Shown: positions 5,187 to 14,867 of the stretch, piece after piece
Layout: each line of letters begins with the position of its first letter
Position numbering within the stretch: the stretch's first letter is position 1
Source of the DNA: Chloroflexota bacterium
GTDB lineage: Bacteria; Chloroflexota; Anaerolineae; VGOG01
DNA length: 17,321 bases
Assembly: GCA_030615705.1 (NCBI GenBank)
Contig: JAUWYT010000005.1
Location: 1 to 17,321, forward strand
Direction: 5' to 3'
Made by a program: the position numbers and the translations under genes
The notes under the pieces: model-generated
Seen by the model: only the letters and a program-made list of their open reading frames with translations
The model's database searches: none
Told to the model about the DNA's origin: nothing

Positions 5187-5225
5187 GCTCGACTGAGCCT
5201 TCGGGCCGACGGCTCGCCGAAGTCT
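5187..5225. repeat. Short copy of a dispersed repeat (also at 9606-9684)
   Basis: The 17-mer GCTCGACTGAGCCTTCG (5187-5203) and the block GCTCGCCGAAGTCT (5212-5225) recur in the same order and orientation at 9606-9622 and 9671-9684. Here they are separated by 8 bp, there by 48 bp. The unit is imperfectly palindromic and lies in the noncoding gap between the S1 gene promoter and the end of ridA. Confidence 0.7.
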
Positions 5226-5246
5226 CAGCTCTCCCTTTGCAGGCCC

Positions 5247-5828: not shown

Positions 5829-8800
5829 CTATTCTACTCTTATCGCCCCTGCCCCCAGCATCTCGATCAGGGCCTCCTCCAGGGTGGGGCAATAGGCGGT
5901 AGTGGCGTTGGGGAAATCCAACTGTATTCGCTTCTCGTCGCTGACCAGATAGAGGCTGAAGTGGTCGTCACCCTTATAGCTCTGCAATAGGCTATGCACC
6001 TTCCCCAGCCGCTCAATGTCCTGCTCTTGTTCCCTGGTGCGGGGGATAGTGATGTGGAGGTGTCGGGGCCTACTGGGCTGATAGTTCTCTTCATCCATCG
6101 GTCGGCTGATCAGCAGATAATCTTGAACCGATTCGCAGATCACCTTAGGCACCCTGCCCTTTGTGTCCACCCTGCCCTTGACGACCAGAATCTTGTCTTC
6201 CTGCCAAAGCTCGCGAGTCCTCTCGTAGACGCTGGGGAAGACGATGACCTCAATGCTGCCCCGTAGATCCTCAAGTTGCACAAAGGCCATGGGGTTCCCC
6301 TTCTTAGTCGTATATGGGCGCACCCAAGTCACCACCCCGGCTATGATCACCTTCTGGTCGGCCATCTCCTCGTCAATCTCGCCGCAGAAGGCGGTCACCG
6401 TCCCATCCAAGCTAGCAGCTACCTGTTGTAAGGGGTGTTCGGAGACGTAGAAGCCAACTAGCTCCTTCTCCCAGGCCAGCATTTGCTTGCGAGGCACCTC
6501 TCGTATGTCGGGCAGAGGGATGGAACTTCCCATAGATAGGGAGAAGCCGCTGGAGGCGTCGAACATGCTCAATTGGCCCGCCTCCTGGGCCTGGTGGGTG
6601 CTCTGGCTTAGAGCTATCATGGGATCAACGATGGCCAACAGTTGGGATCGCTGGCCGAAAGCATCTAAAGCACCGACCTTGATAAGACATTCCAGGGCCC
6701 GGCGGTTCACCTGACGCAAATCAACCCACTGGCAGAAATCCTCATAATTCTTGAAGGGGCCGCCTTGCTCTCGGGCAGCTAGTATAGCCTCAATGGGCCC
6801 CTGGCCCACGTTCTTTACTGCACCCAAACCGAAGCGGATGGCACTGCCAACAGGAAGCAGGACGCAGGATGCAGGATGCAGACTAGTTTCTTGCCTCTTG
6901 TTCCTTACCTCTTGCTTCTTGCTTCCTGCTTCTATGGTAAAGTCCAGCCCGCTCCGGTTCACATCCGGCGTCAGGATCTCGATCCCCATTCTACGACACT
7001 CGGCGATGAAGAGGCCAACTTTATCAACGTTGTTGCGCTCCACGCTGAGGAGGGCGGCCATGTACTCCACGGGGTATTTCGCCTTGAGCCAGGCTGTCTG
7101 ACAGGTGATGACGGCGTAAGAGGCAGCGTGCGCCCGGTTGAACCCATAGTTAGAGAAATACTCGATGGCATCGAAGATTTCCCTGGCCTTATCAGCTTCG
7201 ATGCCGCTATGCTTGACTGCCCCCTTGATGAAGGTTTTCCGGTGCTTGAGGAGCTCCTTCTCTTTCTTCTTGCCCACGGCCCTCCGCATCAGGTCGGCAT
7301 CGGCAGCCGAGTAACCGGCTAATTCGGTCATGGTGCGGATAATCTGTTCTTGATAGACGATTATGGCGTAGGTCTCTTTCAGGATGGGCTCCAGTTTGGG
7401 ATGGATATAGGTCACTTTCTCCCGGCCGTGCTTGCGGGCGATGTAATTGGGGATGAACTGCATCGGGCCAGGGCGGTAGAGGGAAATCACCGCAATGATG
7501 TCTTCGAAGCGCGTGGGCTGCATGTCCGTGAGGACACGACGCATTCCCGCCGACTCTACCTGAAAGATGCCGGTTACTGCGCCGCTGGAGAGTAGCTCGA
7601 AGATGGCAGGATCATCGGTGGGAATCGCGCTCAAATCCAGTTGGATGCCGTAATTCTGGCGGATGAGATCAACGGCCTTGCGCATGATGGTCAGAGTGGA
7701 AAGGCCCAGGAAGTCGATCTTGAGAAGGCCAATGTCCTCCAATATGTCCATCGGGTATTGGGTTACAACTATTCCCCCTTTCTCACCCCCAGTTGGGCGA
7801 CGCAGCGGGGTGTAGTTGATTAAGGGCGCGTCAGCGATGACCACGCCAGCAGCATGAGTCGAGGCGTGGCGAGCCACCCCCTCTAAACTCTTGGCTGTAT
7901 CAATGAGCTTTTTGACGTAATCCTTGCTCTCGTATAGATCTCGGAGCTCTGATACTTTCTCCAGGCCATCCTGGATTTTGACCTTTGGCCCAAAGGGGAT
8001 CATCTTGGCCGCCCTATCCACCTCGTTTAGAGGCAAGTCCAGTGCTCGCCCGGCGTCGCGGATGGCCGCTCGAGCGCCCATGGTGCCGAAGGTGATGATC
8101 TGGGCCACCCGATCCTGGCCGTATTTTTCGACGGCGTACTTGATCATCTCGTCGCGGCGCTCGTCGGGGAAGTCCAGATCAATATCTGGCATGGTCACCC
8201 GACCCGGGTTAAGGAAGCGCTCGAAGATGAGGCCGTAACTCAGTGGGTCCAGGTTAGTAATGCCCAGGGTATAGGCTACGATGCTGGCAGCCACGGAACC
8301 ACGCACGTTCCACCAGATTTCCTGGCTCCTGGCATGATGCACGAGGTCCCAGACGATTAAGAAGTAGGTGTCGAAACCCATCTGATGAATTAGGCTCAGC
8401 TCGTACTGGAGGCGGGCCTGGATCTCCGGGGTGACGATGGCATAGCGATCCTTTGAGCCCTCCTGGCACAGGTGACGCAAGTAACTTTCGGCATCGTAGC
8501 CCTGGGGAACCGCGAAGATCGGCAGGTGATAGCCCTCGCTCTGTAAATCCAGGTTACATTTTTCGGCGATGAGCAGGCTGTTTTCTACTGCTTCCGGCAC
8601 ATCGGAGAAGAGAGCAGCCATTTCCTCGCCGCTCTTGAGGTAGAAGCTTTCGTCACCCATGGTCATGCGCTTGGGATCGTTGATAGTGGTGTTGGTCTGA
8701 ATGCAGAGGAGGATCTCCTGGGCCTTGGCCTCCTCGGGCCGCACGTAGTGGACATCGTTGGTGGCCACAAGAGGGATGCCCATTTCATTCGCCAGGGCAA

Positions 8801-9374
8801 TGAGCCCCTCGTTCACCTGTTTCGTCTCGGGGATGCCCTCGTGCCTCTGTAGCTCCAGGTAGAAGTTGCCCTGTCCGAAGGCATCGCGGTACCAGGCGGC
8901 CACTTCGCGTGCTTTATTCAATTGCCCCTTCAAGACCAGGCGGGGAATCTCCCCTGAGCCGCAGCCTGAGAGGGCGATCAGGCCCTGGGCGTGCTCAGCC
9001 AGGTACTTTTTGTCCACGCGGGGCTTGTAGTAGAAGCCTTCGAGCTCTGCGGCCGTGGCTATCTGGAGCAGGTTGTGATAGCCGACGTTGTCCTTGGCCA
9101 GGAGGAGAATGTGGTGAGGGCGCCTGTCTTTTTTGGGGTCTCTCTGCTTCATGCCGCGGGGGGCGATGTACAGCTCGATGCCGATGATCGGCTTTATCCC
9201 ATGCCTCTGGGCTACCTGGTAGAACTCAATGGCCCCGTACATAGCTCCGTGGTCGGTGAGGGCCAGAGCTGGCATGCCCAGTTCCTTGGCGCGAGCGACC
9301 AGATCCTCCACCCGACCCAAGCCATCGAGCAGGGAGTATTCGCTGTGGACGTGGAGGTGAACAAAGGGAGGCAT
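5829..9374 (-). CDS. dnaE: DNA polymerase III alpha subunit with an in-frame repeat insertion
   Basis: 1181 residues: the catalytic subunit of the replicative polymerase. Visible in order: PHP domain (HLHVHSEYSLLDGLG at 6-20, TDHGAMYG, GIELYI); the polymerase core with motif PDIDLDF at 396-402, whose Asp residues D397, D399 and D401 include the metal-binding pair of this family; the nucleotide-binding segment WWNVRGSVAAS; the beta-clamp/helix-hairpin region; an OB fold (IIAGVVTWVRPYTTKKGNPM, roughly 1005-1080); and a C-terminal domain. The start is ATG 9374 with GAGAGGAG about 7 nt upstream and a promoter at 9418-9446. Two oddities: residues about 816-843 are encoded by an inserted 78-bp palindromic repeat, and the usual GSGAGS glycine motif reads GSVAAS. 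ridA follows on the same strand. The identity is certain; whether it is fully active is inferred from the intact frame. Confidence 0.97.
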   Translation of the reverse strand: MPPFVHLHVHSEYSLLDGLGRVEDLVARAKELGMPALALTDHGAMYGAIEFYQVAQRHGIKPIIGIELYIAPRGMKQRDPKKDRRPHHILLLAKDNVGYHNLLQIATAAELEGFYYKPRVDKKYLAEHAQGLIALSGCGSGEIPRLVLKGQLNKAREVAAWYRDAFGQGNFYLELQRHEGIPETKQVNEGLIALANEMGIPLVATNDVHYVRPEEAKAQEILLCIQTNTTINDPKRMTMGDESFYLKSGEEMAALFSDVPEAVENSLLIAEKCNLDLQSEGYHLPIFAVPQGYDAESYLRHLCQEGSKDRYAIVTPEIQARLQYELSLIHQMGFDTYFLIVWDLVHHARSQEIWWNVRGSVAASIVAYTLGITNLDPLSYGLIFERFLNPGRVTMPDIDLDFPDERRDEMIKYAVEKYGQDRVAQIITFGTMGARAAIRDAGRALDLPLNEVDRAAKMIPFGPKVKIQDGLEKVSELRDLYESKDYVKKLIDTAKSLEGVARHASTHAAGVVIADAPLINYTPLRRPTGGEKGGIVVTQYPMDILEDIGLLKIDFLGLSTLTIMRKAVDLIRQNYGIQLDLSAIPTDDPAIFELLSSGAVTGIFQVESAGMRRVLTDMQPTRFEDIIAVISLYRPGPMQFIPNYIARKHGREKVTYIHPKLEPILKETYAIIVYQEQIIRTMTELAGYSAADADLMRRAVGKKKEKELLKHRKTFIKGAVKHSGIEADKAREIFDAIEYFSNYGFNRAHAASYAVITCQTAWLKAKYPVEYMAALLSVERNNVDKVGLFIAECRRMGIEILTPDVNRSGLDFTIEAGSKKQEVRNKRQETSLHPASCVLLPVGSAIRFGLGAVKNVGQGPIEAILAAREQGGPFKNYEDFCQWVDLRQVNRRALECLIKVGALDAFGQRSQLLAIVDPMIALSQSTHQAQEAGQLSMFDASSGFSLSMGSSIPLPDIREVPRKQMLAWEKELVGFYVSEHPLQQVAASLDGTVTAFCGEIDEEMADQKVIIAGVVTWVRPYTTKKGNPMAFVQLEDLRGSIEVIVFPSVYERTRELWQEDKILVVKGRVDTKGRVPKVICESVQDYLLISRPMDEENYQPSRPRHLHITIPRTREQEQDIERLGKVHSLLQSYKGDDHFSLYLVSDEKRIQLDFPNATTAYCPTLEEALIEMLGAGAIRVE
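6851..6928. repeat. 78-bp imperfect palindromic repeat inserted in frame within dnaE
   Basis: The ends CAGGAAGCA (6851-6859) and TGCTTCCTG (6920-6928) are perfect inverted repeats. The interior is purine/pyrimidine biased, built on GAAGCA, GGATGCA and GAGGCAAG motifs, and meets at CTAG near the centre. The length is exactly 26 codons and no stop is created. It encodes a Lys/Gln/Arg-rich then Cys/Leu-rich stretch unlike DnaE, between FTIE and IRFGLGAVKNVG. Its composition resembles intergenic junk repeats of many environmental bacteria (from memory, not searched). Confidence 0.8.
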
Positions 9375-9605: not shown

Positions 9606-9720
9606 GCTCGACTGAGCCTTCGAGGGTGAGCCTCAGGACGAAGCCTCAGCCGAATGTCCTCAGCCGAACCGCTCGCCGAAGTCTTGTTCTCACCCTTTCG
9701 ACAACAAGACTTCGTCGAGC
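9606..9720. repeat. Long copy of dispersed repeat with an 18-bp hairpin
   Basis: 9606-9684 shares GCTCGACTGAGCCTTCG and GCTCGCCGAAGTCT with 5187-5225 but has about 40 bp more between the blocks. The second block, extended to 9671-9688, forms an inverted repeat with 9703-9720 (17 of 18 positions pair) around a 14-nt loop, a strong potential hairpin. It lies downstream of the plus-strand promoter at 9502. Confidence 0.7.
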
Positions 9721-11524: not shown

Positions 11525-12727
11525 CTACTTCTTCGTCTCTAGGGTGACCAAAGAGGTCTTCCCGGCCCTGACCTTTACGTCCTGTGTGTGCAACCGTCCG
11601 CCTATCCTGGCCTTCAGGACATAAGAGCCGGCTGGCACATCCCCCATCACGAAGTTCTCGCCCCATTCCTCGTCAGGGTTAACCCTGTCAGGGTCAACCT
11701 CATCGCTGGCATAGGTCCAGGTCTCGCGCCATCGCCTGTCGGGCTCCTCAGCGCGGTGAAAGGTGACGAGAGCCTCAGGTATGGGATTCCCCCCGGCATC
11801 CAACAACTGCCCGGCGATTGTCCCGTGGCCGGGCAAGGGCTTCAGCCACAGATCCGGGTTGCGGGTATTGGTGTAGGCGTTGGCTCCCACCCGCACCTCG
11901 AAGTGAAGGTGGGGCCCGATGGCTATCCCTGTCATTCCTACCTCGCCTAGCACTTCGCCTATCGTCACTCGCTGGCCCAAGCGAGCCATTACCCGCAAGA
12001 GGTGACCGTAAAGAACGAAGACAGGCTGCCCATGGAACTCTCTATCCAACTGCACCACTACAAGCTGGCCATAGAAATCGGTTCTGAGACCGTAGACCCT
12101 GGCCTGATCGGTGCCAGCGACGATGACCGTTCCTGAGGCAACAGCCAGGACGGGGGTGCCAAGGGGATTCTCAATGTCCACCCCGTGATGGAGAGTATAG
12201 CGGCCGCTGGCCGTGGTACCGTAGGGATAAAAGCGACTGGCCCGGGCTTGGCCCTCAGGGCCGATAGGACGCTCCAGCCAGTAGTGGTCCTGAGGAGGCC
12301 CTGGTGTTTTCGTCGGCGTGGGGGTGGGCGTTGACGTTGAGGTAGGCGTCGGTGTCAATGTGGGGCTGGCGGTCGGGCTGGGCGTCGGCGTTGCCGTTGC
12401 CGTGGGCGTACGTGTGGACGTAGGGGTACTGGTGGAGGTTGGCGTCGGCGTGGGGGTAAGCGTGGGTGTGGACGTAGGGCTACTGGTGGAGGTTGGCGTC
12501 AGTGTTGGGGTAGGCGTGGGTGTCGGTGTGGACGTGGGGGTGAAACTTTCCCACCAAAGTTGGGGGGGATTGAGGGGGGGCGTCGGCGTTGGCGTGGGAG
12601 TTCCCAAGACGGCGAGGTGAGCAAAGGGCCGCCAGACAAATGCGACAACTGAGATGACCAGGGCCAGGGCGAGGGCACCAGTTATTAAGACCAAGGTATC
12701 CTGTGGACTGTTCTCAGTCTTGAGCAA
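11525..12727 (-). CDS. Membrane-anchored M23 (LytM-type) metallopeptidase with Thr-Pro stalk
   Basis: 400 residues. The N-terminus has one hydrophobic anchor (about 11-33), so the rest is probably extracellular. A low-complexity Thr/Pro/Ser stalk covers about 43-155. The M23 domain follows with zinc and catalytic motifs H180-x3-D184 (HHGVDI), LYGHL, and H273-L-H275 (PHLHFEV), all present, so peptidase activity on peptidoglycan cross-bridges is plausible. The last ~100 residues ([20 protein letters not shown]...) form a carboxypeptidase regulatory-like beta-sandwich, perhaps for binding. The start is TTG 12727, 5 bp after the ftcD stop; AGGGA at the end of ftcD serves as ribosome-binding site, so translation is likely coupled. 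There is no Met alternative. It is the last gene of the DUF523-ftcD operon. The substrate could also be another protein. Confidence 0.88.
12414..12521. repeat. 54-bp tandem duplication inside the Thr-Pro stalk
   Basis: Units 12414-12467 and 12468-12521 match at 49 of 54 positions and encode 18 residues each of the stalk. A partial third unit follows. The whole 12303-12603 stretch is a GT-rich imperfect repeat on the plus strand. Confidence 0.8.
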
Positions 12728-14336: not shown

Positions 14337-14402
14337 TTAGCTTGCTTGTCTGTGGGTAGTCTCCCTGTAAAGTGTTGTTGTGCTCAAATGAGCTGTTTGC
14401 TT

Positions 14403-14487
14403 GTCATTGCGAGGAGCACAGCGACGAAGCAATCTCCAACCCACGATGGAGGGGATTGCTTCGCTCCCTGCGGTCGCTCGCAATGAC
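14403..14487. repeat. REP-like palindromic element, copy 2
   Basis: 85 bp with perfect 11-bp inverted ends, GTCATTGCGAG (14403-14413) and CTCGCAATGAC (14477-14487). The core CGAAGCAATC / GATTGCTTCG is inverted around a short centre. It is the same family as 5715-5812. It has no coding capacity. Confidence 0.88.
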
Positions 14488-14573
14488 ACATCGGGCGGCA
14501 ACACCCAGGAGAGGGACCACTTGTCTGTGAAACTCCCATCAAGCTACAAATTCGAACCGGAGGAGAAGTCACA

Positions 14574-14867
14574 ATGGCTTTGCAAAATGACCGGATGATC
14601 ACCGAGGTCGCTGATCTAGTGTCAGTTCTGCCCGCTGCTGATCGGGAGGTCTTCGAGCGCCTCTTCCACATAAGCACCACTGTTGGCTATTTGAACCCAC
14701 CTGAGGACATGCACGGCTGGATCGAGAAGCACTTCGGCTCGGTAGAGGCGGTCCGCAGCCAACGAATTGTGAAGATAACCAATCTCGTCACGCAAGTTTC
14801 GCTTATTTCGAGAGCATATTCGCCAATTCCGGAGCGCATTTACCTCGATTGGGGGGTGGATAGATAA
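14574..14867 (+). CDS. Short hypothetical protein, possibly the 5' part of a truncated gene
   Basis: 97 residues; function not recognised. The start is well supported: GGAGGAG lies about 8 nt before ATG 14574. The sequence looks like real protein: an Asp/Glu- and Leu-rich helix (DLVSVLPAADREVFERLFHI), then GYLNPPEDMHGWIEKHFGSVEAV and QRIVKITNLVT. It has no signal peptide and no membrane segment. After ITNLVT the character changes (QVSLISRAYSPIPER) and the frame stops soon after, which suggests the remnant of a longer protein, though an intact small protein cannot be excluded. It lies among broken genes, which favours decay. Confidence 0.5.
   Translation: MALQNDRMITEVADLVSVLPAADREVFERLFHISTTVGYLNPPEDMHGWIEKHFGSVEAVRSQRIVKITNLVTQVSLISRAYSPIPERIYLDWGVDR

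Follow-up and report, generated by a model that had tools for sequence, protein, structure and literature searches.

The element that lies within dnaE in the 17,321-nt stretch of DNA analyzed here (the window) is probably a two-armed array of degenerate heptanucleotides, STRR-like in its build, that expanded in situ within the codons of a beta-hairpin loop. STRRs are short tandemly repeated repetitive heptanucleotides of cyanobacteria, and they also occur in rnpB. This genome has many other period-7 arrays.

The dnaE tract and the loop that it encodes

The features of the dnaE region are the following.

5829 to 9374, minus strand: dnaE, DNA polymerase III alpha subunit, 1181 amino acids (open reading frame, Pfam)
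6642 to 6986, minus strand: HHH_6 domain (PF14579) containing the array, DnaE residues 797-911
6846 to 6929, minus strand: entire 84-nt tract, twelve 7-nt units in a single register (unit listing; period-7 detector on both arms)
6888 to 6929, minus strand: arm 1, coding strand GCAGGAA GCAAGAA GCAAGAG GTAAGGA ACAAGAG GCAAGAA, peptide AGSKKQEVRNKRQE
6881 to 6887, minus strand: center unit ACTAGTC, containing the palindrome ACTAGT
6846 to 6880, minus strand: arm 2, coding strand TGCATCC TGCATCC TGCGTCC TGCTTCC plus the deviating TGTTGGC, the Leu/Cys/Pro-rich half of the peptide
6851 to 6928, strand not assigned: the 78 bp delimited in an earlier note on this DNA, with ends CAGGAAGCA and TGCTTCCTG

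The earlier note described a 78-bp element with perfect inverted ends, and these ends are exact reverse complements over 9 bp. The element is in frame, with exactly 26 codons and no stop, and as the tract lies in the open dnaE frame (9374 to 5829, minus strand), repeat DNA has become coding sequence of DnaE, as was claimed. The 78 bp are thus present, but their boundaries are arbitrary, the 7-nt register spanning 84 nt from 6929 to 6846; likewise, the interior repeat units are real but form an array of heptamers rather than one repeat unit. The tract consists of six GCARGRR-like units, ACTAGTC, four TGCNTCC units and TGTTGGC, that is, of tandem 7-nt units in a kept register, as in heptanucleotide or STRR-like arrays. 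The inverted ends exist because the two arms have unit types complementary to each other. The detector found above-threshold period-7 segments in the 17.3-kb window only in the arms of this tract (6851-6881 and 6904-6932). The DNA hairpin is weak, with a fold z-score of -1.77 and 7 of 200 shuffles folding equally well.

DnaE matches five Pfam families of polymerase III alpha (DNA_pol3_alpha, DNA_pol3_finger, PHP, HHH_6 and OB-fold), and the HHH_6 match spreads 115 DnaE residues over just 89 profile positions. We modeled residues 659-958 with AlphaFold (44 sequences; mean pLDDT 81.5, pTM 0.59). The array peptide is placed between two strands (fragment residues 155-158 and 186-189), with residues 174-181 below a pLDDT of 50; this low-confidence loop supports the interpretation of the earlier note in this respect. 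The best sequence and fold matches of the fragment were polymerase III alpha chains, and in the alignment to 2hpi_A, the insert is missing between residues 882 and 883. From the model, we read the insert as a flexible beta-hairpin tip. Most likely, it extends the hairpin at the start of the helix-hairpin-helix region as a flexible and near-neutral peptide.

The search for DnaE homologues returned 7514 proteins; among the best 120, which were listed, the loop was parsed by pattern in 95 and by eye in P0003 and P0005. Its length varies widely in the 95, in line with the earlier view that this loop tolerates insertions. From E815 to the AIRFG strand, it has 29 residues in the window and in P0001, which represents the cluster of the window (13 member sequences), 22 in P0002 and P0003, and 15 in P0004. 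The latter three are the closest among the homologues listed, with 86%, 86% and 82% identity to the window DnaE over residues 700-960. The loop edges match between the three forms (AGSKKQEVRNKRQETSLHPASCVLLPVGS, AASKKQEVRSRRQETSLLPVDS and AASKKQETILLPADS), and the steps are of exactly 7 residues; as read from the proteins, 7 and 14 residues are the length of 3 and 6 heptamers, and the number of units varies between relatives. These differences would fit growth or shrinkage alike. The inserted residues, which the earlier note expected to be unique, are so only in part: the loop of P0001 is identical, P0002 to P0004 have shorter versions, and the same-family genomes G001 and G002 have, at the DNA level, short loops without an array.

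In most of the next relatives, the loop is 4 to 7 residues long (e.g., ADGQKSR), and some more distant homologues have long loops of other make-up (P0041, P0047, P0049, P0064 and P0101). The 26-residue loop of P0038 (70%), TASSKQQADREERGGLRPAACSPAGS, is similar in make-up, with a length outside the 7-residue steps, and could be a separate array. The loop could be parsed in 52 of 62 dnaE DNA loci, some of which come from the same genome; besides the window, a single weak, GC-rich period-7 score was obtained (L019). In a loop-free DnaE tree of 35 rows (from P0001-P0047, dropping proteins outside 1050-1300 amino acids, as well as P0014, P0015, P0023, P0032 and P0036, whose loop the pattern missed), the window and P0001 form one clade and P0002 and P0004 another. 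The origin of the array takes two changes on the best tree and one change in 22% of the bootstrap trees, and a single origin was not rejected (p-AU 0.453). The "datable insertion" of the earlier note was given up, since relatives share the array and the trees give no order for its growth. By dnaE, the nearest named genomes belong to the Chloroflexota, Anaerolineae, Thermoflexia and Caldilineaceae, next to a few distant ones from other phyla, and they point to the phylum of the window.

Several other observations were made on DnaE and its surroundings. Compared with the window genome, cluster representatives have 8 extra residues, FGKAQGRP in the C-terminal part of DnaE (P0001) and VLSPVEGL in ValS (P0241 versus L134); by its length, this may be a 24-nt repeat of another kind, polymorphic within or near the species. 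The DnaE proteins of G002, G006, G011, G053 and G056 give split matches, the parts of which overlap near fragment residues 88-98 and are set apart by a long intervening stretch. P0025, P0061, P0080, P0083 and P0109 bear PF14528 and PF14890, which we take to be intein-type domains. The genome of the window also has a second, divergent DnaE-like frame (1072 amino acids; G000 C81:2853-3527). In the window, positions 12311-12542 hold period-6 and period-12 repeats in a Pro/Thr linker ahead of a peptidase-like domain (labeled by eye), which are of the ordinary codon-level type, in contrast with period-7 arrays. GCTCGACTGAGCCTTCG is found at 5193-5240 and 9612-9660, both outside large genes, and a stretch resembling it adjoins an array near position 8140 of locus L187; it may be another dispersed repeat. 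The open reading frame at 14384-14680 (minus strand) terminates in CHCERPQGAKQSPPSWVGDCFVAVLLAMTSKQLI, presumably akin to the translation of an intergenic palindrome family.

Period-7 arrays in this genome and its relatives

The search of the element and its flanks against its own genome (1.9 Mb, 322 contigs, 79.6% complete) returned the element itself and no second copy. The copies predicted elsewhere in the genome were thus not found as such, but arrays of the same unit type recur: when a degenerate pattern made of three YYCYTGC units was allowed as many as 3 mismatches, it gave 67 matches including the element, versus 7 for the reversed control. The stretches fetched for these matches contain period-7 arrays with quite different units, such as GAGTTAC, AAATCCG, CCACTTG, ATAGCTG, CAACTTC, TTACTGG, AATTTGG, GTCCCAA and others. 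This targeted DNA has 32 segments at period 7, against 0 to 4 at each of the periods 4-6, 8-13 and 15, and 26 at the harmonic period 14. Untargeted DNA amounted to 127.6 kb from 20 contigs (C1, C3-C16 and C18-C22, skipping C2 and C17, where there were weak pattern hits). In this small sample, we detected 6 arrays at period 7, 5 at period 8, 6 at period 6 and 5 at period 12, whereas five dinucleotide-preserving shuffles yielded a mean of 0.0 period-7 arrays. The arrays are dispersed: the DNA fetched from the own genome, largely targeted, contains 38 distinct period-7 segments, with a two-armed element counted as two.

The periods 6 and 12 are divisible by three and suit coding repeats, and 7 is not; we therefore take the period-7 arrays to arise at the DNA level. 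The contrast between periods was smaller in targeted DNA of the relative G011, with 30 segments at period 7, 12 at period 6, 8 at period 9 and 7 at period 8. A two-armed array of period 8, with CACCAAGG-type and then CCTTTGTG-type units, lies at 7016-7075 of locus L175, and 7 is thus not the sole step. The two-armed arrays that were listed differ in their units and ends, and they have no shared terminal inverted repeats of the MITE or REP kind. A rule that the G-rich arm comes first was rejected: by our own count, which left out loci L082-L099 and includes the nearly balanced L107 and L108, 14 of 17 listed two-armed loci comply, the exceptions being L136, L181 and L127.

With at most 1 mismatch, the YYCYTGC pattern was found in 28 of 60 genomes including the window's own, all of the same class, that is, in 27 of 59 relatives, and in 18 of 43 high-quality genomes. 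The reversed control was zero in 16 of the 28, and it equaled or exceeded the match count in 6 (G014, G024, G031, G035, G040 and G059). Phylum-wide, the pattern occurs in 21 of 151 genomes, again including the own genome, many with a single hit. In 20 relatives, sampled as stretches of at most 20 kb on contigs picked for dnaE or a pattern hit, period-7 arrays were present in 6 (G001, G008, G011, G016, G020 and G028). G020 has a two-armed array with nearly the same arm pair as dnaE (GCAAGAAAC..TGCATCCTGCAT). An arm-pair pattern, chosen after that array had been seen, matched 2 of 60 genomes, the own genome and G020, and a shared element family was rejected on this limited occurrence. Loss of MutL was also discarded as a cause, as MutL_C is present in 56 of 60 genomes including the own genome and its absence does not mark array-bearing genomes.

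The arrays of this genome are positioned near-randomly relative to open frames. Twenty-four of the 38 segments (5 of 6 untargeted, 19 of 32 targeted) are stop-free in frames of at least 200 codons with at least 30 codons on either side, long frames not being proof of genes, and random segments do the same at rates of 0.69 and 0.72 (about 0.71). The shares were below random in the 20 relatives (4 of 11 arrays versus 0.82, in stretches of at most 20 kb) and in the targeted stretches of G011 (21 of 30 versus 0.86), suggesting that in relatives arrays may avoid genes. Array-bearing genes besides dnaE are valS, rpoB, mfd, miaB, hypF, folC, lpd and purA. By residue positions, above-cutoff curated models span the arrays of valS (three arrays), miaB, hypF (two), rpoB, folC and lpd. 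The mfd array is at the edge of the matched model stretch, the purA array lengthens the C terminus, and the TIGR03960 match to a radical-SAM protein spans its array with a score below the cutoff. The remaining in-frame arrays are in long frames with no model across them.

An hdrA-like gene (C234) carries its array within a linker, which we read in the proteins of the first 50 of 120 listed homologues, all of them parsed. Linkers of the same type differ by 7 residues in three pairs (P0124 and P0125, 30 and 37; P0156 and P0160, 28 and 35; P0170 and P0169, 28 and 35) and by 14 in one (P0129 and P0135, 28 and 42), the pairs having been chosen by eye among many other differences that are not multiples of 7. 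Linker length is a multiple of 7 in 22 of the 50, which we excluded as evidence because many array-poor homologues share the length 28. The array peptides vary among homologues (KQEA, SQVAG, EQGSRGA, PPSSIL, FPISNLQ), and P0151 strings several types in one 59-residue linker. As read from these proteins, the site would thus remain array-bearing while its units are replaced. ValS was considered as a further case of 7-residue steps; its loops could be read by pattern in 29 of 120 homologues at one site and in 4 of 120 at the second. An orthologous array of G001 and G002 differs by a 16-nt gap, not by a clean heptamer. L107 and L108, loci of these same genomes near a frame that we take to be coaE-like, share an orthologous two-armed GATTT/AAATC array, conserved across two genera with a nearly unchanged right arm.

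Origin of the array

The units of an array resemble their neighbors most. Of 115 arrays pooled from this genome, G011 and other relatives, 63 have at least 5 units. In these, the mean distance was 1.45 between adjacent units and 1.80, 2.12 and 2.42 at lags 2, 3 and 4. The distance rises with lag in 52 of the 63 and does not in 11, and with the end units trimmed it rose from 1.64 to 2.47 (32 arrays). As the detector itself selects on neighbor likeness, we simulated its effect. Independent errors around a fixed unit gave a nearly flat profile (1.64 to 1.87 in the noisiest case) and serial copying a steep rise, the observed profile lying in between. This supports the copying of neighboring units in place, although neighbor likeness has other possible causes, such as later homogenization.

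We propose that new units would arise when neighboring heptamers are copied by slipped-strand synthesis in 7-nt steps, with errors accumulating, and that the inverted arm would come from a fold-back or a template switch onto the complementary strand. Selection would then eliminate changes in length that disrupt the frame, bring in stops or affect structured regions, leaving frame-keeping arrays in loops. The 7-residue step equals 21 nt, or three heptamers, 21 being the smallest number divisible by both 7 and 3. A one-unit slip would break dnaE, and growth would thus proceed in 21-nt jumps or through brief compensated states. Three-unit jumps are awkward, fitting plain slippage badly, and slippage alone does not yield the inverted arm. 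The near-identical arm pair of G020 would be better explained by a shared or copied seed, which leaves room for seeding from elsewhere. A wider and doubtful extension is that some replication or repair activity of this lineage continually adds error-prone 7-nt steps to the chromosome, genes included. Coding copies would survive in 21-nt quanta because 7 is not a multiple of 3, providing a steady source of seven-residue segments, even in the replicative polymerase that may set the step.

It is unlikely that a mobile palindrome (RPE, REP or MITE-like) entered dnaE in frame and was then domesticated. The two inverted arms with their 9-bp perfect ends, the other arrays of this unit type in the genome and the G020 locus speak for this, as do RPEs, which enter genes in frame, including the DNA polymerase III alpha gene of Rickettsia (accessible text of PMC3767692). 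However, the 79.6% complete genome yielded no second copy, the arrays share the 7-nt period, their units being unrelated in sequence, and the homologue loops of 15, 22 and 29 residues indicate that the element is not fixed. These points also led us to drop the discrete dispersed palindrome and single insertion of the earlier note. No target-site duplication was seen in the alignment with G001 and G002, where the loop is too diverged to exclude one.

It appears improbable that the array is maintained for a function, with a DNA or RNA hairpin or the Lys/Gln-rich peptide acting to regulate or modify DnaE. The array is indeed common to homologues of 82-86% identity over the searched region, and many of the 50 HdrA homologues read have an array-like linker at the same site, with differing peptides. 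Nevertheless, many DnaE homologues read have a short loop, the loop is of low confidence in the model and the fold signal is weak. The near-random frame position of the own-genome arrays suits neutrality. The genome is a fragmented, metagenome-assembled one of 322 contigs, and short repeats are prone to assembly errors. Yet an artifact of assembly or binning is very hard to credit given the identical loop in P0001 (the representative, and the one sequence read, of its 13-member cluster), the kept reading frame and the unit-type arrays in 27 of 59 relatives and 18 of 43 high-quality genomes, with the reversed control reaching the count in 6 of 28.

Relation to known repeats and significance

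Heptamer arrays, two-armed ones included, are already known. "STRR-like" refers to build, and we claim no lineage link to cyanobacterial STRRs. The P6b repeats of Nostoc trnL, TDNGATT and NNTGAGT, are degenerate 7-nt units that form a complementary stem, with gain and loss of units and two classes per site (accessible text of PMC4476775). The dnaE array likewise has degenerate 7-nt units, complementary arms and two unit classes; unlike P6b, which lies in a tRNA-gene intron, the present arrays are translated in frame, in several enzymes of a single genome, and have more unit types. According to the accessible text of PMC4679880 and PMC4692102, Mrazek et al. (2007) found 7 to be the most abundant unit length in most prokaryotic genomes, proposed polymerase slippage over a 7-nt contact, and found units divisible by three likeliest inside genes. 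The arrays of this genome depart from that last trend, lying in open frames about as often as random segments.

The accessible text of PMC4692102 describes dispersed heptamer arrays, some intragenic, of GGGAATC in Xanthomonas and GGGGA(T/C)T in Nostoc. There are 70 and 75 convergent inverted pairs in two xanthomonads, with intragenic shares of 11% and 7%, and the intergenic share in Nostoc is 68%. In that text one unit type is followed per genome, whereas here there are many units and 24 of 38 segments are in long open frames. The TAACTGA heptamers of Beggiatoaceae are a single favored unit, mostly upstream of starts, with stop codons in translation and only one indirect repeat (accessible text of PMC4679880), in contrast to the many units and open frames found here. 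RPEs are sequence families of palindromes of about 100-150 bp that lie in frame in protein genes, DNA polymerase III alpha included (accessible parts of PMC3767692 and PMC10969869). The comparison with RPEs made in the earlier note stands for the outcome, palindromic DNA in frame within a protein gene and even in the same one (PMC3767692, in part), but not for the type of element: the 84-nt tract has no fixed sequence or length, and no homologous copy was found in the 79.6% complete genome. The present array therefore belongs with the heptamer repeats in build and with RPEs in outcome.

The number of arrays in essential genes and the turnover of their units look new. Our literature search, with subscription journals mostly outside it, turned up no genome for which heptamer arrays had been described in frame in many essential genes, stepping by 7 residues and exchanging their units. 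This genome has many arrays, both within and outside genes, and relatives with which to compare them. If the 21-nt frame filter holds, step size, error rate and the turnover of units could be tested on these natural arrays, which would also represent a route by which essential enzymes gain new loops.
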